This document shows, in pieces, positions 14,007 to 30,390 of a stretch of 31,857 nt of DNA (position 1 is its first letter; every line of letters starts with the position of its first letter). The DNA is from a virus: positions 1 through 31,857 of the IMG/VR virus record IMGVR_UViG_3300017917_002063; one strand, 5' to 3'. The notes under the pieces are model-generated. The model did not search any database. It had not been told where the DNA came from and saw only the letters and a program-made list of their open reading frames with translations. Both the position numbers and the translations under genes were made by a program.

Positions 14007-15098
14007 ATGGCGATAGAATTTTCGAATGGATTTACGATTGGTGCAATTGAATTATATCCATTTACATCATTTACATTTACAACTGCAGGAACAAGTGGTT
14101 CAACTGGTCCTTTAGGAACGAGATTATTGGCAACATATACCGGTTCATCATCGGGAAGTTATTTTTCTAACCCTTCATATTTTACAACAGGTTCTTTTCA
14201 AGGTTATCAAATTTGGACAGTTCCTGAAACTGCAAATTATGAAATTGAAGTAGCGGGTGCGGCAAGTGGTGTTAGTTCATACCCAAGAATATATTCTGGT
14301 TCAATGGGAGCAATTGTTAAAGCAACTATTCCATTAACAAGAGGACAAAAATTTGTAATGGTTGTTGGACAAAGAAGTTTGAATACTGCAACATCTGGAC
14401 TCTCTTATGTTGGTGTTGGTGGTGGGGGTGGTTCATTCTTTGTTCTTTCAGGTTCAAATACTCCTTATTTAGTGGCAGGTGGTGCGGGTGGACAAGGTGC
14501 ATATAGTGGGGACCCACAAGGTGGTGGAATTTTAAGAAGTGGTTCATTGAGTGGAAATGGTTCAACATCAACAACGGGTTCAACATCATTTAGAGGTGCA
14601 CCAGGTGGTACTGGAAGTTTAGGTGGTCGTTCTCATATTAATACTGCATCTGTTATATCAAATAATGCATACGATGCCGGAGGTGGTGGTGGATTTAATG
14701 GTAATGGTTTTAATGGTAGTGGTGTACTTGCAAATACTACAAACGGTTCCACAGGTGGTGGAGGATTGGCATTTATAAGTGGTGCAGTAGGTGGAGTTGC
14801 AGCAACATCATATACTCCTTCAAATGCAACTGTTGGTGGATTTGGTGGTGGAGGAGGTGGAACTCCTATTGCCGGAGGAGGTGGTGGTGGATATGCGGGA
14901 GGTGCGGGTTCATACGCATCATCAAATCCTGTTGCAGATGGTGGTGGTGGAGGTAGTTCGTATATAATATCAAATGCAACTTCAATTGGAACATCAGATG
15001 GAAACTATGCAGGATTATCTACATTTAGTGGAAGTTCTATTACAAATCTTAACTCATACAATAGTGGTAGTGGGTATATACGAATAACTAAATTATAA
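14007..15098 (+). CDS. Glycine-rich adhesin (ALK/LTK-type glycine-rich domain)
   Basis: This 363-residue protein starts 4 nt after the giant fibre. Residues 1-70 are Ser/Thr/Gly-rich. Residues 70-125 form a beta segment (QIWTVPETANYEIEVAGAAS, then GAIVKATIPLTRGQKFVMVV) followed by repeated Gly runs (GVGGGGGSFFVL, GGGGGFNGNGF, GGGGGGTPIAGGGGGGYAGG). This arrangement matches the glycine-rich domain family also found in ALK/LTK receptors, which folds around polyglycine helices. Glycine-run adhesins also occur at T4-like fibre tips (gp38 type), although the N-terminal pattern here is different. The location directly behind a long fibre suggests a tip adhesin that mounts on it or on another fibre. 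Partner and ligand are not visible. Confidence 0.75.
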   Translation: MAIEFSNGFTIGAIELYPFTSFTFTTAGTSGSTGPLGTRLLATYTGSSSGSYFSNPSYFTTGSFQGYQIWTVPETANYEIEVAGAASGVSSYPRIYSGSMGAIVKATIPLTRGQKFVMVVGQRSLNTATSGLSYVGVGGGGGSFFVLSGSNTPYLVAGGAGGQGAYSGDPQGGGILRSGSLSGNGSTSTTGSTSFRGAPGGTGSLGGRSHINTASVISNNAYDAGGGGGFNGNGFNGSGVLANTTNGSTGGGGLAFISGAVGGVAATSYTPSNATVGGFGGGGGGTPIAGGGGGGYAGGAGSYASSNPVADGGGGGSSYIISNATSIGTSDGNYAGLSTFSGSSITNLNSYNSGSGYIRITKL

Positions 15099-19609: not shown

Positions 19610-22144
19610 ATGGCAGCTATATTTCAAATAAGAAGAGGAACAACTGATATTTCATCATCAATTTTTGATGGTGAATTATACTTAAATAAAAGCAAAAACT
19701 CTTTACAGGTTTCAATAGGGGATGGAAATCCAATTACATTAGTACCATTAAATACTGCATCCGTTGGGGATATATATTTAAATGGTAATATAACTGCATC
19801 AAACGCATATTTTAGTGGAGATGTTGCTATTTCTGGAAACCTATTTTTAGGAAACAATTCATCTGATAATATTGCTGCATTGGGTGTATTTACTACAAAT
19901 TTGGTACCAGGAACTACAAATACATATGATGTTGGTACAACTTCGGCAGTTTGGGCAAATGTTTATGCAAACAATGTATCAGCATCATCCATAACAGGAG
20001 CATTTAGTGGAACCATCGGTGGTATAAACATAACTACTTTTTCACAATCAGTAGATAATAGATTAGACCAATTAGAAACAAACACTGGCTCTCAAGATGG
20101 TAGAATTACGGTATTAGAAAACAAAGCAACAACATTACAAACCTACACAGCAAGTGTTGATAGTAGATTAAATCAACTTTCTACTGATACTGGTTCTCAA
20201 AACACAAGAATTACTGATTTAGAAAACAAAGCAAATACTTTACAAACTTATACTGCAAGTGTTGATAGTAGATTAAATCAACTTTCGGTAGATACGGGTT
20301 CTCAAAACAGTAGATTAAACAACTTAGAAGCAACTTCTGCAAGTTTATTAATTGAAACCTCTAATTTAGAATCTTTTACTGCATCTATAAATAATGCAAT
20401 TGATGTAACCGGTGGAAACACAAGAATTAAAGGAAATCTTATTGTAGATGGCACACAAACATCATTAAATACCACAGAAGCATTTATTGAAGATAAAAGT
20501 ATTACTTTAGCAAGTGGTTCTACTACATCAGGAATTGCAGATGGTGCAGGATTTAACATTGCAGGTGCAAATGTTTCAATGAGTTGGCAAGATTCAAACA
20601 CAAGATTATTCTTTAACACAAACATTGCTGCATTAGGTAGTATAAGTTCATCCACAATTGTTGGATTAAATAATGCAAGTGTTTCAGCGTATTCTACATC
20701 TGTTGATAGTAGATTGGCAAATTTACAAACCACATCAGGAAGTGTAAATGGTTCTATTACAGCATTGAACGCATTTTCGGCATCACAGATATCAAAGGAT
20801 TCAACTTTACAAACATATACTGCATCTTTAGATAATACAATTGCAAGATTAAGAGAAGCAACTGCTTCATTAAATACATTTACTTCATCTGCAACTATAA
20901 GATTAAATAATTTAGAAAGCACTTCAGCAAGTTTATTAGTTGAAACATCTAATTTAGAACTATTTAGTGCAAGTGCATTATTAAGATTAAACAGTTTAGA
21001 AACAGATAGTGGTTCTCAAAATACCAGAATAACTGTATTGGAGAATAAAGCAACTACACTTGCACCATTAACTTCATCCATTTTATCGTTTACTTCATCT
21101 GCAAATAACAGATTAAGTAGATTGGAAGAAAGTACCGCATCTTTAAATACATTTACAGGTTCAACTTATCCAACGTTCTCACAATCTGTTGATTTAAGAT
21201 TAGATGATTTGGAATATACTGCATCAATTTCAATTGGAGCAGGATTGACAACAGCATTAAATCAAATAAATGCATTTACTGCATCTGCAACTATAAGATT
21301 AAATAATTTAGAAACAACATCTGCAAGTGTAAACAGTAGATTAGACCAACTTTCAAATGATAGTGGTTCTCAAAATACGAGAATAACAACTTTAGAAACT
21401 AAAGCAACTACATTAGCAACTGTAACTTCATCATTATTGATTGAAACTGCAAACTTAGAATTATTTAGTTCTTCAGCATTATTAAGATTAAGTAGTTTAG
21501 AAACTGATACCGGTTCACAAAACACAAGAATAACAACATTAGAAAATAAAGCTACAACCCTACAAACTTATACTGCAAGTGTTGATAGTAGATTAAATCA
21601 ACTTTCAACAGATAGCGGTTCGCAGGCAGGTAGAATATCTAATTTAGAAAGTTTTACATCTTCTATAAACACTACAATTAAAACAAAATTAGATGTAGAT
21701 GGTGTAATATCTGGTTCAATACAAGTTTTAGGTGGTTCAAGTATTCATAGTGGTTCGGCTGGAGATTATCAGTTTAACTCTATTGGAGTTGGAACGGCAC
21801 CTTCAACCGTTGCAGGAGAGATTAGAGCAGCAGGTGATATTACAGCATTTTATTCTTCAGACTCGAGATTAAAATACGGAGTTGTTCCTATTGAAAACGC
21901 ATTACAAAAAGTTGAAAGTATTAGTGGTAACAGATACCATTGGAAAGAAGGATTTGAAGATGTACACTCACACAAAGGAAGTGATATTGGAGTAATTGCA
22001 CAAGAAATACAAAACATTTTACCAGAAGTGGTAACGGAAAGAGATAGTGGATATTTGGCAGTAAATTATGAAAAATTAGTTCCACTTTTGATTGAAGCAA
22101 TAAAAGAATTATCACAAAAAGTAAAAAAATTAGAAAATAAATAA
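19610..22144 (+). CDS. Tail fibre with S74 self-cleaving chaperone end, 844 aa
   Basis: Residues 1-45 (MAAIFQIRRGTTDISSSIFD, then GELYLNKSKNSLQVSIGDG) form an Mtd-like attachment domain. The shaft contains coiled-coil-like repeats (SRLNQLSTDTGSQNTRITDL) and an 80-residue cassette (about 268-344) shared with the 1067-residue fibre. Residues 740-844 are a peptidase S74 intramolecular chaperone: FYSSDSRLK carries Ser750 and Lys755 with the five-residue spacing of the catalytic dyad, followed by GSDIGVIAQEIQNILPEVV and a terminal helix ending LSQKVKKLENK. In this family the chaperone trimerises the fibre and then cuts itself off before the Ser, so the mature chain would be about 749 residues. Cleavage itself is predicted from motif only. 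Confidence 0.9.
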   Translation: MAAIFQIRRGTTDISSSIFDGELYLNKSKNSLQVSIGDGNPITLVPLNTASVGDIYLNGNITASNAYFSGDVAISGNLFLGNNSSDNIAALGVFTTNLVPGTTNTYDVGTTSAVWANVYANNVSASSITGAFSGTIGGINITTFSQSVDNRLDQLETNTGSQDGRITVLENKATTLQTYTASVDSRLNQLSTDTGSQNTRITDLENKANTLQTYTASVDSRLNQLSVDTGSQNSRLNNLEATSASLLIETSNLESFTASINNAIDVTGGNTRIKGNLIVDGTQTSLNTTEAFIEDKSITLASGSTTSGIADGAGFNIAGANVSMSWQDSNTRLFFNTNIAALGSISSSTIVGLNNASVSAYSTSVDSRLANLQTTSGSVNGSITALNAFSASQISKDSTLQTYTASLDNTIARLREATASLNTFTSSATIRLNNLESTSASLLVETSNLELFSASALLRLNSLETDSGSQNTRITVLENKATTLAPLTSSILSFTSSANNRLSRLEESTASLNTFTGSTYPTFSQSVDLRLDDLEYTASISIGAGLTTALNQINAFTASATIRLNNLETTSASVNSRLDQLSNDSGSQNTRITTLETKATTLATVTSSLLIETANLELFSSSALLRLSSLETDTGSQNTRITTLENKATTLQTYTASVDSRLNQLSTDSGSQAGRISNLESFTSSINTTIKTKLDVDGVISGSIQVLGGSSIHSGSAGDYQFNSIGVGTAPSTVAGEIRAAGDITAFYSSDSRLKYGVVPIENALQKVESISGNRYHWKEGFEDVHSHKGSDIGVIAQEIQNILPEVVTERDSGYLAVNYEKLVPLLIEAIKELSQKVKKLENK
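20410..20640 (+). repeat. Fibre cassette B, copy 2
   Basis: GNLIVDGTQTSLNTTEAFIE, DKSITLASGSTT and AGFNIAGANVSMSW match copy 1 in order and spacing. Confidence 0.75.
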
Positions 22145-22182: not shown

Positions 22183-25100
22183 ATGGCACTTAAATTTAGA
22201 CGTGGGACAACCGCACAGAAATCAGGTTCGTTACAATTCGGAGAACCATTTGTAAACACGGATTTACAAACATTACAAATTGGATTAGATGGTGGAGATA
22301 TTGAGTTAGTATCAAAAGATGATTTTAACGCATTCACTTCATCGGTAGATTCTGCTGCACAATCAGTAAGAATTGACCAATTAGCAGCGGCAACCGCATC
22401 TATAAACGCATTTACTGCATCTCAATTAACGAAAGATAGTACATTAGCAACAGTAACATCATCTTTACAGATTGAAACTGCAAACTTAGAAAGTTTTTCT
22501 GCAAGTGCTATATTAAGATTAAACAATTTGGAAACCGATACCGGTTCTCAAAATACGAGAATTTCTGTATTAGAAACTAAAGCAACTACATTAGCAACCG
22601 TAACTTCATCTTTACAGATAGAAACATCTAATTTAGAAACATTTAGTGCAAGTGCAATTATTCGTTTAACAAACATAGAAAGTACAACATCTTCTATAAA
22701 TTCGTTAAATACTACACAGACAAGTAGATTAGACCAATTATCAACATTTACTGCAAGTAATGGTAATACATCATTAAATAGTTATACAGCAAGTAATGAT
22801 ACTACAAATACTGCACAAACGGGTAGATTAAATAATTTGGAAACTACTTCAGCAAGTTTATTAGTTGAAACATCTAATTTAGAATTATTTAGTGCAAGTG
22901 CAATAACTAGATTAGACCAATTATCAACCGATACTGGTTCACAGAATACAAGAATTTCTGTTTTGGAAACAAAAGCTACAACTTTAGCATCAGTAACTTC
23001 ATCCCTTCAGATTGAAACTTCCAATTTAGAAACTTTTTCTGCAAGTGCATTATTAAGATTAAGTAGTTTAGAAACTGATACCGGTTCTCAAAATACAAGA
23101 ATTACTACATTAGAAAGTAAAGCAACAACTTTGCAAACTTATACTGCATCTGTTGAAGGAAGATTTTCAACATTAGCAACTTATACCGGTTCTAATGATA
23201 CAACTAACACTACTCAAAATAGTAGATTGGACCAATTATCAACATTTACTGCAAGTAACGGTAATACATCTTTAAATTCTTATACTTCATCAAACGATAG
23301 TAAGTGGAGTACATTAGGTACATTGAGTGGTTCATTTGCAAGAACAAATTCATCAAACATATTTAACGGTAACCAAACAATTACGGGTTCATTATTTATA
23401 TCACAAGATTTAGTAGTAGCAGGTTCGTCATCAATTCAAAACATTAGTTCTTCTAATTTAGTAATTGGTACAGCATTCGTAACTGTAAATACAAATAATC
23501 CATCATCAAGATATGCGGGGTTAATATTTGTAGATTCTGGTTCAGTTGGAGGTAGTGGTTCATTATTCTATGATTCTATCGAGGATGAAATGATATTCAT
23601 TCATAGAGGAAATGGTACAAATGTAACATCTTCTGTGATATTAATGGGACCACAAACTTACGATAATATTGGAAACGAAACATATCCAACTACAAATAGA
23701 GTTTTAAAATCAAACGGATTAGAACATGTTGGAAACTCAAACATTAATGATGATGGAACAACCGTATCTATAAACAGTAATACTCAAATTACTGGCTCAT
23801 TAACAGTAAGTAACGGAATAATTGGTTCAATAAATGCAACAAACGGAGTAGTATCGGGTTCGGCACAAATTACACCTCTATTACCAACTGGAGTTGTTAG
23901 CGGTTCCTCACAAGTTGTTGGTATATTATCATCATTAAACTCTTACACTGCATCAAACGATACAACAAATGCAACTCAAAACAGTAGATTAGACCAATTA
24001 TCCACAGATAGTGGTTCTCAAAATACAAGAATTACAACATTAGAAACTAAAGCAACAACTTTAGCGAGTGTAACTTCATCTTTACAGATTGAAACAGCTA
24101 ATTTAGAAACTTTCTCTGCAAGTGCATTGATTAGATTAAATAATTTAGAAACCACAACATCTTCATTAGCAACAACTTATGAAGGAAGAGCAAGTGGTGC
24201 AAAAACATTATTCTCCGGTTCATCACAAGTAAACTATACACAACTAAGTGGAATTTCGGCAAATATCATATCAGCATCAGCAGATAGTTCAACCGTAGAT
24301 TTCACAATCACTGGTGGAAGTATAAGTGCAAACTTAATTGGTGGTGTGGTTTCGGGTTCATCTCAAGTTTCATATACCGGTGTATCCAACATACCAGCAG
24401 GAATTGTAAGTGGTTCATCACAAGTAAACTTTACACAATTGGCAGGAATATCTGCAAATATCATATCAGCATCAACTGATAGTTCAACGGTAGACTTTAC
24501 AATAAGTGGTGGTAGTATAACCGCAAATTTAATTGGTGGTGTAGTTTCTGGCTCATCTCAAGTTGTGGGTATATTGGCATCGTTAAATACTTATACCGGA
24601 AGTACTGGTAACATTACTTCATTAAACTCTTACACATCATCTGCAACTATAAGATTAAACAACTTAGAAACCACTTCGGCAAGTTTAGTAATTGATACTA
24701 ATAATTTAGAAACTTTTTCTTCGAGTGCATTAATTAGATTAAACAACTTAGAAAGTACTACTGCATCATTAGCAACAACTTATGAAGGAAGAGCAAGTGG
24801 AGCAAAAACATTATTCTCCGGTTCATCTCAAGTTTCATATACTGGATTGAGTGGAATACCAGCGGGAATTGTAAGTGGTTCATCTCAAATTACTCTTTCA
24901 TCAACAACTGGTGGTGGTACTGCAGCAAGTGTTCAATTTGGTTCATTGGGAATTGGAACTGCGGCAAGTGGTGTGAGTGGTGAGATTAGAGCAACTGCGG
25001 ATATTACAGCATACTATTCTTCGGACATTCGTTTGAAAGAAAATATCAGACCAATTGACAACGCATTAGATAAAATCAGAAAAATCAGCGGTAATACTTA

Positions 25101-25338
25101 CGATTGGAAAGATGGATTTGAAGAAATTCATTCTCATAAAGGAGAAGACATTGGTGTAATTGCGCAAGAAGTTGAAGCAGTATTACCAATATTAGTAACA
25201 ACGAGAGAGCATGGATATAAAGCAGTTCAATACGAAAAAATCGTAGCATTACTAATTGAAGGTATTAAAGAACAACAATTACAAATAGAACAATTAAGAA
25301 TAGATTTAGATAATTGCAGAAATAACAAAGGGTTATAA
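22183..25338 (+). CDS. Tail fibre with S74 self-cleaving chaperone end, 1051 aa
   Basis: Residues 1-40 (MALKFRRGTTAQKSGSLQFG, then EPFVNTDLQTLQIGLDGGD) are an Mtd-like attachment domain. Residues 50-390 are coiled-coil-like repeats. Residues 390-545 hold the 150-residue cassette shared with two sister fibres, though more diverged here. Residues 560-925 contain VSGSSQV-type beta repeats with a near-exact internal duplication. Residues 935-1051 are an S74 chaperone (YYSSDIRLKENIRP, catalytic Ser947 and Lys952, then GEDIGVIAQEVEAVLPILV) ending in a long helix (KEQQLQIEQLRIDLDNCRNN). Self-cleavage before Ser947 is expected from the family. The last gene-internal residues NNKGL overlap an AAGGG that could weakly serve the next gene as an SD. 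Confidence 0.9.
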   Translation: MALKFRRGTTAQKSGSLQFGEPFVNTDLQTLQIGLDGGDIELVSKDDFNAFTSSVDSAAQSVRIDQLAAATASINAFTASQLTKDSTLATVTSSLQIETANLESFSASAILRLNNLETDTGSQNTRISVLETKATTLATVTSSLQIETSNLETFSASAIIRLTNIESTTSSINSLNTTQTSRLDQLSTFTASNGNTSLNSYTASNDTTNTAQTGRLNNLETTSASLLVETSNLELFSASAITRLDQLSTDTGSQNTRISVLETKATTLASVTSSLQIETSNLETFSASALLRLSSLETDTGSQNTRITTLESKATTLQTYTASVEGRFSTLATYTGSNDTTNTTQNSRLDQLSTFTASNGNTSLNSYTSSNDSKWSTLGTLSGSFARTNSSNIFNGNQTITGSLFISQDLVVAGSSSIQNISSSNLVIGTAFVTVNTNNPSSRYAGLIFVDSGSVGGSGSLFYDSIEDEMIFIHRGNGTNVTSSVILMGPQTYDNIGNETYPTTNRVLKSNGLEHVGNSNINDDGTTVSINSNTQITGSLTVSNGIIGSINATNGVVSGSAQITPLLPTGVVSGSSQVVGILSSLNSYTASNDTTNATQNSRLDQLSTDSGSQNTRITTLETKATTLASVTSSLQIETANLETFSASALIRLNNLETTTSSLATTYEGRASGAKTLFSGSSQVNYTQLSGISANIISASADSSTVDFTITGGSISANLIGGVVSGSSQVSYTGVSNIPAGIVSGSSQVNFTQLAGISANIISASTDSSTVDFTISGGSITANLIGGVVSGSSQVVGILASLNTYTGSTGNITSLNSYTSSATIRLNNLETTSASLVIDTNNLETFSSSALIRLNNLESTTASLATTYEGRASGAKTLFSGSSQVSYTGLSGIPAGIVSGSSQITLSSTTGGGTAASVQFGSLGIGTAASGVSGEIRATADITAYYSSDIRLKENIRPIDNALDKIRKISGNTYDWKDGFEEIHSHKGEDIGVIAQEVEAVLPILVTTREHGYKAVQYEKIVALLIEGIKEQQLQIEQLRIDLDNCRNNKGL
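22705..22745 (+). repeat. 41-nt exact repeat shared between two fibre genes, copy 2
   Basis: Identical to 10952-10992, about 11.7 kb away and in another gene. Confidence 0.9.
23350..23810 (+). repeat. Fibre cassette A, copy 3 (diverged)
   Basis: The same order of landmarks is recognisable (QDLVVAGSSSIQNISSSNLV, SSRYAGLIFVDSGS, SLFYDS, VILMGPQTYDNIGNE, GLEHVGNSNINDDG), but identity to copies 1 and 2 is much lower. Confidence 0.7.
24163..24230 (+). repeat. 68-nt internal repeat, copy 1 (1051-residue fibre)
   Basis: Differs at only 2 of 68 positions from 24766-24833 in the same gene and encodes SLATTYEGRASGAKTLFSGS. The high DNA identity marks a recent duplication or gene conversion. Confidence 0.9.
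24766..24833 (+). repeat. 68-nt internal repeat, copy 2 (1051-residue fibre)
   Basis: Second copy of the 24163-24230 repeat, 66 of 68 bases identical. Confidence 0.9.
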
Positions 25339-25339
25339 T

Positions 25340-26338
25340 ATGTATGATGTATATTACACCACCGCAGGAGGACCCTGGTTCAATAGTGGTGCAGATATGT
25401 GGGTAACACAATGGATAGAAGAGGTAGCACCAAAATTAGAGGTGAAACCTCTTCTACTATTCCATAGAAAAAAACCTGATAATTATACCGATTTCCAAAT
25501 AAACATAGATACGGTTTGGGAAACGGATGATAACGAAATCATAAAAATATTTGAAGGTGCGAGAAAAATACATATATTACATGGATACTATACTCCCACA
25601 AGAGCAATACATCAAAACTTAGAAAAAATTGATTCAATCGTATTTCATAATCTCACAAAAATATCGGTAATATCACAACAACATAAAAGTGATTTTTTAC
25701 ATTGGACAGCAGATTTACAATACGAAACAGAACTAATAGATAAAATTAAAAATAAAATTTGGGTAGGATTGTATCATTTTCCATATAAAACAGATAATCT
25801 ACATCATATTCCAAATGTTTATCAGTTTACTAAAAACAAAGAACTCTCAAATTCTATTAAAGTTGGATTTGCAGCAAGAAGTGAAGGTAGAAAGAATGTG
25901 GAGTTTTTAGATGGTTTGGAAAGTTTTATATTTACAAATTCCGAAACATTTAACAAATATTACAGAGTAAAATATGGATACAAATTCCAAAAAGGAAAAG
26001 TTTATAAATTTGATTACAAATTCAAAGAAAGGTTTTACGAACTTGATTGGGGTATATCTCACTCTTGTTTTGAATCAGAACCCTTCGGATACAGCATATT
26101 TGAGGCAGTGGATTGGGGTAAATTACCGATATTACACCAAAATTGGCATGTTCCTCTTGATTACAAATATAAAGCAAGTAATAGAGAAGAATTTATCAAA
26201 ACCTATGAAACACTTTGTAATGATGATTACGAAACAAAGAAAATAGAGCATCAAAAATTAAAGAATTGGATGCAAACTTATTTTTCGGACAAAGAAGAAT
26301 GGAAACAAAAACTTTTAGATATTTATAACGGAGAATAA
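25340..26338 (+). CDS. GT-B glycosyltransferase (EX7E motif)
   Basis: This 332-residue protein starts 1 nt after the fibre stop. It is the only clear enzyme within the adhesin island. Residues 175-190 (KVGFAARSEGRKNVEFLDG) resemble the nucleotide-sugar domain entry of GT4-type enzymes. FESEPFGYSIFEAVDWGKLP contains Glu247 and Glu255 in the EX7E arrangement typical of retaining GT-B glycosyltransferases. An N-terminal half with a GG-rich start (YYTTAGGPWFNSGADMW) and HGYY loop would form the acceptor domain. There is no signal peptide or membrane segment, so it is cytoplasmic. By position it may glycosylate a fibre protein or the adhesin encoded next, but it could act on DNA or host glycans instead. 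Confidence 0.75.
   Translation: MYDVYYTTAGGPWFNSGADMWVTQWIEEVAPKLEVKPLLLFHRKKPDNYTDFQINIDTVWETDDNEIIKIFEGARKIHILHGYYTPTRAIHQNLEKIDSIVFHNLTKISVISQQHKSDFLHWTADLQYETELIDKIKNKIWVGLYHFPYKTDNLHHIPNVYQFTKNKELSNSIKVGFAARSEGRKNVEFLDGLESFIFTNSETFNKYYRVKYGYKFQKGKVYKFDYKFKERFYELDWGISHSCFESEPFGYSIFEAVDWGKLPILHQNWHVPLDYKYKASNREEFIKTYETLCNDDYETKKIEHQKLKNWMQTYFSDKEEWKQKLLDIYNGE
26320..26327 (+). promoter_or_regulatory. AT box TATTTATA within end of glycosyltransferase gene
   Basis: An exact core (TATTTATA) preceded by GA, 18 nt before the Hint-adhesin start. It lies inside codons for LDIYN, so it may be a coincidence of coding sequence. Confidence 0.3.
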
Positions 26339-26345
26339 TACAATA

Positions 26346-28088
26346 ATGGCAAGAACTAATTTATCTTTAGGAAATTTATACAGAGCAGTAAGTGGTTCAG
26401 CGAGACCTGGAGCAGTATCTCTTAGTGGATTAGCAGGTGGTGGAACTAATATAAACTTACAATCATTCTCAATTGATGCAGTAACCGCATCTGTATTATA
26501 CACATATATTGTAGAAGGAACTTCTGAAAGTGCATCATTTACATTTACATCACAAGGTAGTAGACATCAATCAAAAGTTGCACCAGTAGTTGCAAATTAT
26601 TCTGTAAGTAGTAGTCAGTTTACTACCGGTTCATTAACTGCAGGAAGTGGAGTATCATCATTTGCATTTACAGCAGGAACTATTGCCGGTTCTACTTACG
26701 GTACAGAAAGAACTGATACAATGGTTTTGAAATATGCAGATGGGTATAATATAAATGCAACTAATTATAACTCAAACGTAAATGTAACACTTATATTAGT
26801 AGATGTTTACAATACGGTCAATCAACCAGATTTTTGTTTAGTATTTGGAACAAAAGTTAAATTAAGTGATGGAACTGAAATAAATGTTGAGGATATAAAT
26901 GTTGGAGATGAAATAAAAGCATGGGTTCCTGATGGGTTGCCTGATGAAAATCAAGATCCAGAAAGTGAAGGAGTAGATTGGACACTTTATCAATTAGAAG
27001 AATTAAGTGGAACACCTCAAAATGTAACTGTAAAAGATTTAACATTCAACTTTGCAGATGGATATTATTCTATAAACGGTGGTTTAATAAAAGCAACCGG
27101 AACTCACCCAATATATGTTTGGAACAGTGAAATTCAAAAATATAAATTCAAAACCATTGAAGAACTTATTTCTGGTGATAAATTAATTAAATACACAGAA
27201 GAAAATGGAGAAGAAGAAATTGTTGTTGATACCGTAGATTACATAGAAGAAGCAGTTGAAATCGTAACAATAAACGTTGAAAACTCCGACGTATTTATTT
27301 CAAATAATTTAATTTCTCATAACAAAGGAACAAAAACTCAACCAATGATTCCTGGTAACGGATTGGTAATGTATTTAGACCCATCAAAAACGGCATCATT
27401 TGCGGCAGGTTCATTACCTGCAACCGGAACACCATCAGTAGATTGGTTAGATTTAACTGGCTATGGAACCGGTGTTAGACCAGGTGCACAACCACCATTA
27501 TCATTAGCAAACTCTAACCCATCGTATAACAACGGTGCAGATAGAACTACAAGATATTATTCTTTTGATGGTGGTGATTTATTTTACAAAGATACTACAT
27601 CAAATATTAATGGTGGTATAACTCAATTTAATACCAATACCGGAACTATACATATTCTTATTCAACCTACAACAACATTAGGAACATCTACAAGACATAT
27701 ATTTGATTATGGTGGATATTATGGATTGGCAATAGAATCAACGGATAATTCAACACTAAACAGAGTTAAATTTTATGGAAGTTCTTTAGGTAATAGTTCC
27801 CAATTTACAACTTCTTTATCAACAACGGGGTTATGGTATATGATTTCGGCAACTTTTCAACCATCTGGAACCGTAACTGTTTATGTAAACGGAAGTTCAG
27901 TAGGAACATTTACAGCAGCAGCATTTTCAGCACCATCATCTACAAATTATCTAACAATAGGTGCAAATAGTGCAAGAACTTCATTTTGGAATGGTAGGAT
28001 TGGTCCAGTACTATTTTATAATGTTTTGCAATCAGCGACAAATATATCACGTGTATATAATCACTTTGCACAAACTTATATAATCTAA
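26346..28088 (+). CDS. Tail adhesin with internal Hint (intein-like) module and LamG-type lectin domain
   Basis: This 580-residue protein has three parts. Residues 1-163 are a beta-rich Ser/Thr/Gly virion domain ending YNTVNQPDF. Residues 164-326 are a Hint module: Cys164 in CLVFGTKVKLSDG followed by INVEDINVGDEI, the TxxH site Thr251-His254 in ATGTHPIYVW, a C-terminal strand VEIVTINVENSDVFISNNLI and the closing His325-Asn326. The next residue is Lys327, not Cys, Ser or Thr, so it resembles bacterial intein-like domains more than a canonical intein. There is no homing endonuclease. Residues 335-580 look like a LamG/concanavalin-type lectin (GNGLVMYLDPSK, later GLWYMISATFQPSGTVTVYV). Self-cleavage or splicing would separate or rejoin the 163- and 254-residue flanks. 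Confidence 0.85.
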   Translation: MARTNLSLGNLYRAVSGSARPGAVSLSGLAGGGTNINLQSFSIDAVTASVLYTYIVEGTSESASFTFTSQGSRHQSKVAPVVANYSVSSSQFTTGSLTAGSGVSSFAFTAGTIAGSTYGTERTDTMVLKYADGYNINATNYNSNVNVTLILVDVYNTVNQPDFCLVFGTKVKLSDGTEINVEDINVGDEIKAWVPDGLPDENQDPESEGVDWTLYQLEELSGTPQNVTVKDLTFNFADGYYSINGGLIKATGTHPIYVWNSEIQKYKFKTIEELISGDKLIKYTEENGEEEIVVDTVDYIEEAVEIVTINVENSDVFISNNLISHNKGTKTQPMIPGNGLVMYLDPSKTASFAAGSLPATGTPSVDWLDLTGYGTGVRPGAQPPLSLANSNPSYNNGADRTTRYYSFDGGDLFYKDTTSNINGGITQFNTNTGTIHILIQPTTTLGTSTRHIFDYGGYYGLAIESTDNSTLNRVKFYGSSLGNSSQFTTSLSTTGLWYMISATFQPSGTVTVYVNGSSVGTFTAAAFSAPSSTNYLTIGANSARTSFWNGRIGPVLFYNVLQSATNISRVYNHFAQTYII

Positions 28089-28158: not shown

Positions 28159-30390
28159 ATGGCAGAAAAAATTGTATCACCTGGTGTTTTTACAAAAGAA
28201 AACGACCTTTCATTTTTACAACAAGGAGTAGCTGAAATTGGTGCAGCATTTATTGGACCTTTCAAAGAAGGACCAGTAGTTCCTACAATCGTAAATACTC
28301 AAGCTGAATTCGAAACTCTTTTCGGAACAGTTGATGGAACATACTATACTCCTTTAGCAGTACAAAATTATTTAAGAGAAGCAGGAACTGTAACCGTTTG
28401 TAGAGTAGCGGGTATCGGTGGATATACCGAAACTGCACCTTTATTATTAACTGCAACTTCAGGAGCAGTATCTCAATCGTTGGGTATTCTATTTAATACT
28501 ACATCTGGTTCAAACGCAGGTTTTGTAGGTACTACTGTAACTACCGATACTGCTGGTGACTTTTTATTATCAGGTTCAAATGCCGGTTTATTATCAGCAT
28601 CTTTGGACTCAACCGATACAAACGATATTGAAGCAGTATTTGGTACATCTCCATACGGTTCTAAAAAACCATATGTTTATGGATTCTTTAAAAATTCTTC
28701 AATGAGTTTCAACTCTAATACGGCAGTATCTGTAACAGTATTAGGAAACCAAAACTTTGGATTTGATGCACAAGAAGCATTAACACCTACAATTCAATCA
28801 CAATTGATTAGTGGTGAAAGATATAACCTTTTCCAATTTGAAACTTTGGGAGTAGGAAATGCTGCAAACACAAAAGTTAAAATTGGTATTACAAATATCA
28901 AAGCGGCAGGAACTGTAAGTGGAACTGATTATGGTACATTCACAGTAGTTGTTAGAGCATTCGGTGATACTAATAAGAAAAAGAATGTATTAGAAACTTG
29001 GTCAAATGTAAACTTAGACCCTAATTCTCCTAACTATATTAGTAGAGTAATTGGTGATAGAAAATTATCAATTGATTCTGAAGGAAAAATAACTGAAACA
29101 GGTGATTGGGTAAATAACTCAAAATACATTAGAATTGCAAACTTAAACGAATCGGCACCTGTACAAGCAGTACCATTCGGACATGGTGCATATAAATTAC
29201 CAATTTCTGCATCATCTGCAGTTGGAGCATTAGTTCCAGAGGTAACATACATCACATCATCTGCAACTCAATATGGTGGTATTGATTTAGATGGTAATAC
29301 TGATAACTCAATTTACTTAAAACCAATTCCAACTGGAGCAGGTAACGGTGAAAACTTAGCATTTGGATTAGATGCGGCAAACGGAGGTTCATTATCAGTA
29401 GGTTCATCTTCAGCACAATTCATCGTTGGATTCCAAGAAGGATTTGATGGTGTAAACCCTGCAACACCTATTTATAAAGGTTCTGATATAACTGCAGGAA
29501 ACTCACAAGGTTTTGACCTTTCTACTTCAACCTCAAGTGGTTCGGTAGCATATGGTAAAGTAATCGCGGCACTATCAAATGCAGATGAGTTTGATATCAA
29601 TATGGTTGTGGCACCTGGTGTTATTAGAAGATTACACAGTGCAGTTGCAACTGATATATTGGATTTAGTTGAACAAAGAGATGATTGTTTCTATATTATG
29701 GATACAACCTCTCAAGGTGATTCTGTATCACAGGCAGTAACACAAGCTGAAGCAATTGATTCAAATATGGCAGCGACTTACTACCCTTGGGTTAAAACAA
29801 TTGATATCAATACTAACAAATTGATTTCAGTTCCACCATCAGTATTATTACCTGGCGTATTCGCAGCAAACGATAGAGTAGCAGCAGAATGGTTCGCACC
29901 AGCAGGTTTAAATAGAGGTGGTTTAATCGGAGCAGTTAGTGTATTAAACAGATTAACTCAATCTGAAAAAGATACCCTATACGAAGCAAAAGTAAACCCA
30001 ATCGTACAATTCCCTGGACAAGGTATTGTAGTATTCGGACAAAAAACATTGCAAGATAAACCATCAGCATTAGATAGAATCAACGTAAGAAGATTGTTAT
30101 TAACTGTAAGAAAATACATTGCATCTACATCAAGATACTTAGTATTCGAACAAAACACATCTACTACAAGAAATAGATTCTTAAATATTGTAAACCCTTA
30201 TTTGGAATCAATCCAACAAAGACAAGGTTTATACGCATTTAGAGTAGTAATGGATGAATCAAACAACACTCCGGATGTAATTGATAGAAACATTTTAAGA
30301 GGAGCTATCTACTTACAACCAACTAAGACAGCTGAATTCATACAAATTGATTTCAACATCTTACCGACCGGAGCAAGTTTTGGAGCATAA
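28159..30390 (+). CDS. Contractile tail sheath protein (T4 gp18-like)
   Basis: This 743-residue protein begins EKIVSPGVFTKENDLSFL and has QGVAEIGAAFIGPFKEGP and FGTVDGTYYTPLAVQNYL, the conserved N-terminal part of T4-like sheath proteins that links neighbouring subunits. The C-terminus (LESIQQRQGLYAFRVVMDES, then GAIYLQPTKTAEFIQIDFN) is the strongly conserved sheath core. It polymerises around the tail tube and contracts to drive the tube into the host. It is longer than T4 gp18 (659 residues), with variable Ser/Thr/Gly-rich insertions at about residues 95-200 and 370-470 likely on the outer surface. It is followed by the tube gene under its own AT box. Confidence 0.95.
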   Translation: MAEKIVSPGVFTKENDLSFLQQGVAEIGAAFIGPFKEGPVVPTIVNTQAEFETLFGTVDGTYYTPLAVQNYLREAGTVTVCRVAGIGGYTETAPLLLTATSGAVSQSLGILFNTTSGSNAGFVGTTVTTDTAGDFLLSGSNAGLLSASLDSTDTNDIEAVFGTSPYGSKKPYVYGFFKNSSMSFNSNTAVSVTVLGNQNFGFDAQEALTPTIQSQLISGERYNLFQFETLGVGNAANTKVKIGITNIKAAGTVSGTDYGTFTVVVRAFGDTNKKKNVLETWSNVNLDPNSPNYISRVIGDRKLSIDSEGKITETGDWVNNSKYIRIANLNESAPVQAVPFGHGAYKLPISASSAVGALVPEVTYITSSATQYGGIDLDGNTDNSIYLKPIPTGAGNGENLAFGLDAANGGSLSVGSSSAQFIVGFQEGFDGVNPATPIYKGSDITAGNSQGFDLSTSTSSGSVAYGKVIAALSNADEFDINMVVAPGVIRRLHSAVATDILDLVEQRDDCFYIMDTTSQGDSVSQAVTQAEAIDSNMAATYYPWVKTIDINTNKLISVPPSVLLPGVFAANDRVAAEWFAPAGLNRGGLIGAVSVLNRLTQSEKDTLYEAKVNPIVQFPGQGIVVFGQKTLQDKPSALDRINVRRLLLTVRKYIASTSRYLVFEQNTSTTRNRFLNIVNPYLESIQQRQGLYAFRVVMDESNNTPDVIDRNILRGAIYLQPTKTAEFIQIDFNILPTGASFGA

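Follow-up and report, generated by a model that had tools for sequence, protein, structure and literature searches.

A predicted Hint module inside a lectin-bearing protein of phage tail gene clusters, a candidate for self-processing

Type A bacterial intein-like (BIL) domains end in His-Asn and can join their flanks without a nucleophile at the +1 position; in the proposed ligation step the freed amine attacks the thioester, and cleavage products usually dominate over splicing (PMC4031507). The known BIL domains occupy variable stretches of bacterial proteins (PMC5874633). The module described here shares with type A BIL domains a Hint fold as predicted, Cys as the first residue, a TxxH motif, His-Asn as the last residues and the absence of an endonuclease. 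Type A BIL domains also often carry no Cys, Ser or Thr at +1, where Lys stands here, and they provide the best structural matches. The differences lie in the setting, a phage tail gene cluster instead of a cellular protein, in the strongly conserved flanks with an invariant Lys at +1 as opposed to insertion in a variable region, and in a sequence identity of only about 20%.

Three further systems were compared. The Hog/Hint domain of Hedgehog proteins has the same fold, and the N-terminal thioester chemistry is expected here from Cys and TxxH; here, however, Asn closes the module and a large domain (LamG) follows. Class 1 mini-inteins resemble the module in fold and motif order, but here the +1 nucleophile is absent, no empty sites were found and the module is not mobile on the evidence. 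Phage tail maturation is known to involve proteases and self-cleaving S74 chaperones. The Peptidase_S74 chaperones of tail fibres, present in two neighbouring fibres, are likewise a case of self-processing in phage tails, but they differ in fold and chemistry and are removed from the C-terminus.

The C-terminal Hints of jumbo phages (NCTB, Alexandravirus, Yoloswag, Y3, fHe-Yen9-02; phrog_38766) belong to the same Hint subgroup as the module studied here. They also occur in tail gene clusters, end in His-Asn and mostly lack a canonical +1 residue. They close their proteins with a tail of only 2–12 residues, whereas here the module is internal and is followed by a 254-residue part that carries the lectin domain; no similarity was detected between the N-terminal parts of those proteins and that of the protein described here. 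C-terminal Hint tail proteins are thus already annotated in cultured jumbo phages and the kind is not wholly new; what is new is a Hint internal to the chain, ahead of a lectin head, with an invariant His-Asn-Lys. In the open-licence literature, no description of Hint modules in tail or virion proteins of phages was found (subscription journals may hold some), nor any discussion of the function of the annotated jumbo-phage tail Hints, and two jumbo-phage overviews mention inteins solely as selfish elements.

The window, that is, the whole stretch of 31,857 nucleotides analysed, contains the following features of the Hint-containing gene.

26346..28088, + strand: 580-aa Hint-containing tail-region protein, ATG start; architecture shared by 127 distinct full-length homologues
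26346..26834, + strand: N-domain, residues 1–163, beta-rich; best PDB profile match E 0.05
26796..26834, + strand: conserved N-flank, residues 151–163 (LVDVYNTVNQPDF); invariant at 9/13 positions, n = 127
26835..27323, + strand: predicted Hint module, residues 164–326; AlphaFold model, Foldseek matches to BIL, Hedgehog and inteins
26835..26837, + strand: Cys164, predicted N-terminal nucleophile; 127/127
27096..27107, + strand: block B TxTH, Thr251 to His254 (T-G-T-H); Thr251, Thr253 and His254 each 127/127
27288..27290, + strand: Asp315, block F region; 127/127, also in five distant phage virion Hints
27318..27323, + strand: His325-Asn326, predicted Asn-cyclisation site; 127/127
27324..27353, + strand: conserved C-flank, residues 327–336, beginning with Lys327-Gly328; Lys 127/127
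27621..28046, + strand: LamG/concanavalin-like lectin domain, residues 426–567; PF13385, E 1.6e-13

The initial annotation had read an open reading frame at 26346–28088 with Cys164, a TxxH site from Thr251 to His254, His325-Asn326 and a following Lys, and the sequence bears out each of these, the TxxH site reading Thr251-x-Thr253-His254 and the Lys being Lys327. Its 163-residue module without an endonuclease has the right length, and no endonuclease family was matched. The C-terminal LamG-like lectin domain it had proposed is matched by PF13385 at residues 426–567, the window protein scoring 51.5 bits where the cut-off is 27.6, and the same model matched in 40/40 family members scanned. The order of N-domain, Hint and lectin was found in 249 open reading frames of relatives with a closed 3′ end, 244 of them closed at both ends; incomplete relatives are explained by contig ends, by local rearrangements or, in one case, by an in-frame TGA. 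All relatives with this architecture come from metagenomic contigs. The proposed ‘virion-type’ character of the N-domain, however, found no support from homology: AlphaFold places strands between residues 45 and 152, and no known family or relative was recovered for the domain, its best PDB profile match having an E value of only 0.05. The Hint reading, the LamG domain and the position in a tail cluster are borne out, but not this label. Since the N-domain has no known relative, calling the protein a putative adhesin draws on the lectin domain, the position in the tail cluster and the fibres encoded nearby.

That residues 164–326 have a Hint fold is supported by modelling. The AlphaFold model of the Hint module, built from a 40-sequence alignment, reached a pLDDT of 88.6 and a pTM of 0.85. 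When this model was compared with the PDB by Foldseek, the top five matches were BIL domains, with Hedgehog and inteins next, and all of the matches listed (50/50) were Hint-fold structures of the BIL, Hedgehog or intein type. The top five included Tetrahymena BUBL1 BIL2 (PDB 6y75, E 8.5e-9) and the C. thermocellum BIL 2lwy, with a TM-score of 0.79 by target length; for the top eight the target TM ranged from 0.72 to 0.79, and BIL is not clearly separable from Hedgehog or intein by these scores. Foldseek with the model of the whole 580-aa protein likewise ranked BIL domains before Hedgehog and inteins. Among predicted viral structures (BFVD), the best matches were Hint domains of other phage proteins (TM 0.79–0.84).

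Profile comparisons pointed in the same direction. The window protein scored only 13.5–13.8 bits with the Pfam Hint/intein models, short of the curated cut-offs of 32–36 bits (PF05203, E 0.059; PF14890, E 0.063), the best value among family members being E 4.9e-4, and a search of the window record with Hint_2 (PF13403), a model too distant, gave no match. Residues 146–327 were matched by phrog_38766 (‘virion structural protein’) with E 3.3e-9. By hhalign, the module aligned with distant phage virion Hints at 99.4% probability and, at 98.3%, with the intein-type Hint modules of the relatives’ second Hint proteins, of the kind recognised by Pfam in contigs L262 and L264. The Hint-containing virion proteins retrieved by tblastn came from Erwinia jumbo phages, Yersinia phage fHe-Yen9-02 and phage NCTB; inteins in uvsX and terminase genes were weaker matches. 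Structure prediction, Foldseek and profile comparisons thus agree with the earlier Hint reading, which is strengthened by the strict conservation of the active site.

Cys164, Thr251, Thr253, His254, Asp315, His325, Asn326 and Lys327 are invariant in the 127 distinct full-length relatives from IMG/VR. Invariant positions make up 38 of the 163 in the Hint module; if these 38 were placed at random, they would cover the seven Hint motif residues with a probability of 2.4e-5, so that conservation of the motif exceeds chance. The module has a median dN/dS of 0.25. Both flanks are also conserved: residues 151–163 are 69% invariant, compared with 21% (31/150) in the remaining N-domain, and residues 327–336 are 50% invariant, compared with 7% in the head. 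Gly328 directly follows Lys327 in all but one lineage, which reads KIGG. Retention of the invariant residues for structure alone is conceivable in principle; the conserved flanks and the invariant Lys327 favour a role for both junctions, without proving it. In one relative (L283, near 9305), a single in-frame TGA lies within the Hint, a few codons before His-Asn, and the lectin head stays in frame; it was put down to sequencing or to an event in a single genome. Natural split Hints were considered in L204, L213 and L114 and rejected, as these cases are local deletions or contig-edge rearrangements.

The gene is embedded in a tail gene cluster, between the following two neighbours.

25340..26338, + strand: 332-aa gene directly upstream of the Hint gene; adjacent in 125/125 loci longer than 9 kb
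28159..30390, + strand: tail sheath gene directly downstream; PF04984, phrog_23 with E 1.6e-70; 125/125 loci

The sheath gene is followed by tail tube and baseplate hub genes. The upstream 332-aa gene is about 75% identical across the relatives’ loci and gave no match in Pfam, PDB and NCBIfam searches; its motif SHSCFExEPFGYxIFEA gives the impression of what is possibly a glycosyltransferase. Further upstream, two tail-fibre-like proteins (19610–22144 and 22183–25338) end in a Peptidase_S74 domain (E 2e-14 and 3e-18, respectively), and such neighbours fit a tail module that uses self-processing. A 363-aa glycine-rich protein is encoded at 14007–15098 (PF12810, ALK/LTK glycine-rich domain, E 2.3e-7; phrog_22713). 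The major capsid protein is of the T4-like type (phrog_138). The nearest named phages are Microcystis phage Mel-JY01 (capsid 53% and sheath 47% identity) and Flavobacterium phage immuto (52% and 41%, respectively). The annotated sheath regions of these two phages list no intein or Hint gene, and neither phage was among the matches of a search with the full-length Hint protein.

The unchanged active site in the relatives points to a protein that cuts, and perhaps re-joins, itself during virus maturation. On our analysis, self-processing of some kind is likely, and processing by a competent internal Hint in the manner of type A BIL domains is, on balance, probable. In this mechanism, the Phe163-Cys164 bond would be converted to a thioester with the assistance of the TxTH motif, and Asn326, aided by His325, would cyclise and cut the chain ahead of Lys327, so that the LamG head is released and its new amino terminus reads Lys-Gly. 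In a fraction of the molecules, the freed amine of Lys327 would then attack the thioester, yielding the N-domain joined to the LamG head (417 aa, about 44 kDa) and an excised Hint of 18 kDa; in the remaining molecules, hydrolysis would leave pieces of 17 kDa and 27 kDa. The masses computed from the sequence are 62.3 kDa for the precursor, 16.9 kDa for the N-domain, 18.3 kDa for the Hint, 27.1 kDa for the head, 35.2 kDa for N-domain plus Hint, 45.4 kDa for Hint plus head and 44.0 kDa for the spliced product. The computed tryptic peptide spanning the spliced junction of N-domain and head is YADGYNINATNYNSNVNVTLILVDVYNTVNQPDFK, with a monoisotopic mass of 3964.9 Da; the corresponding peptides of the unspliced chain would be residues 130–170 and 283–327. 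Canonical splicing is not expected with Lys at +1, as the initial annotation had argued; because type A BIL domains can ligate without a +1 nucleophile, the 580-aa protein may still re-join its flanks, although ligation as the major product is less likely than not. We infer that the chemistry runs, in what order its steps occur, how ligation and cleavage are balanced and that the protein is present in the virion. If active, a Hint fixed in the middle of a lectin-headed tail-region protein in many environmental T4-like phages would bring thioester chemistry into tail maturation, and protein engineering may gain from the module a new domain for ligation or cleavage.

If the module were an ordinary mini-intein, a selfish insertion in the gene that is removed by splicing, one would equally expect the Hint fold, Cys first, His-Asn last and conserved flanking sequence. 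Mini-inteins may be without a homing endonuclease. This explanation is nevertheless very unlikely here: an endonuclease is absent, the +1 residue is Lys and never Cys, Ser or Thr in 127/127 sequences, and no empty site or Hint-less homologue was found among the distinct relatives. A degenerate DNA pattern, consisting of the N-junction followed by a codon not starting with T (non-Cys T-codons lay outside the pattern), found a Hint-less N-junction in 0 of 2.9 million viral contigs, compared with at least 119 occurrences of the same N-junction followed by Cys-Leu/Phe, which argues for an obligate inherited domain and not an optional mobile intein. The mean identity across the 127 sequences is 0.68 for the Hint and 0.69 for the N-domain; the Hint thus diverges at the rate of the N-domain, as vertical descent with the gene gives. 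A scan of bacterial and archaeal genome contigs for the family returned zero relatives, and hence no bacterial copy. Being strictly conserved and an inherited part of the protein, not a selfish one, the Hint should have an activity that serves the phage.

The outcome of such activity could also be cleavage without ligation, in which one or both junctions are cut after folding or assembly and the pieces stay non-covalently together or the head is shed. Lys at +1 is incapable of transesterification via a hydroxyl or thiol, type A BIL domains yield mainly cleavage products (PMC4031507), and the related phage virion Hints are C-terminal, a position for which cleavage or transfer are the only sensible outcomes; yet both flanks are strongly conserved and the Lys is invariant, which is more than cleavage needs, and shedding the sole recognisable binding domain seems wasteful, so that we regard this outcome as somewhat unlikely. 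A direct part for Lys327 is unlikely: its side-chain or freed main-chain amine would attack the Cys164 thioester, so that N-domain and head become linked through an isopeptide bond or a newly formed peptide bond, or the N-domain would pass to another virion amine, the low estimate covering joining and transfer together. With Lys327 as a chemical participant, the Hint would drive covalent assembly of a phage tail. If an amine or hydroxyl on another virion component, or on the host surface, attacked the Cys164 thioester, the N-domain would become anchored through a new covalent bond. Such attachment draws on the Hedgehog Hint, whose acceptor is cholesterol and which ranks right behind BIL domains in Foldseek, and on the Hedgehog-like order of the C-terminal phage tail Hints, with a Gly-Cys junction in 5/6 and 5/6 members of two sets. 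Here, however, the junction is Phe-Cys, the Hint is internal and the acceptor is hypothetical, making this speculative reading quite improbable. An inactive Hint, decayed or purely structural, has precedents in some modules of related phages without the N-terminal Cys and in one distant virion Hint (L084) without the block B His. Such decay shows that an unneeded motif erodes, yet here all seven residues stay the same across the 127 sequences, and there is little reason to expect inactivity. Self-processing in the type A BIL manner is the preferred reading.

The C-terminal parts of the relatives fall into two head groups of 95 and 32 sequences. Identity of this part dropped from 0.76 within the larger group to 0.47 between the groups, whereas the N-domain and Hint were as similar between the groups as within the larger one (0.69 and 0.67). 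The simplest reading of these sequences is a lectin head replaced, or diverging fast, behind a constant N-domain and Hint. The apparent head exchange suggests a modular way of altering binding specificity.

Other phage Hints were also surveyed. In Alexandravirus, Yoloswag, Y3, AD1 and Afa-NA1, the Hint forms the C-terminus of a tail protein of ~480 residues, with a tail of 10–12 residues. Lys is present in most of the short tails after His-Asn of phage virion Hints; these are few and mostly from one clade, so that no weight was given to them. Five distant phage virion Hints retain the Asp315 equivalent. When viral contigs were scanned with the Hint of L084, no relatives were found.

A second Hint protein of 476–773 residues was found in five of the nine large contigs of relatives (L261, L262, L263, L264 and L265). 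Its first module has lost Cys and kept His-Asn in all five, one or two Hint modules of the Pfam-recognised type follow it in 4/5, and two copies end in His-Asn-Lys; such a tandem-Hint protein is unusual. The tail cluster of phage NCTB contains three Hint genes, annotated ‘intein domain’. NCTB gene 135 (L266, 17698–18159) encodes a nearly stand-alone Hint of 153 residues and adjoins a tail protein with a C-terminal Hint, a layout that raises the possibility of action in trans.
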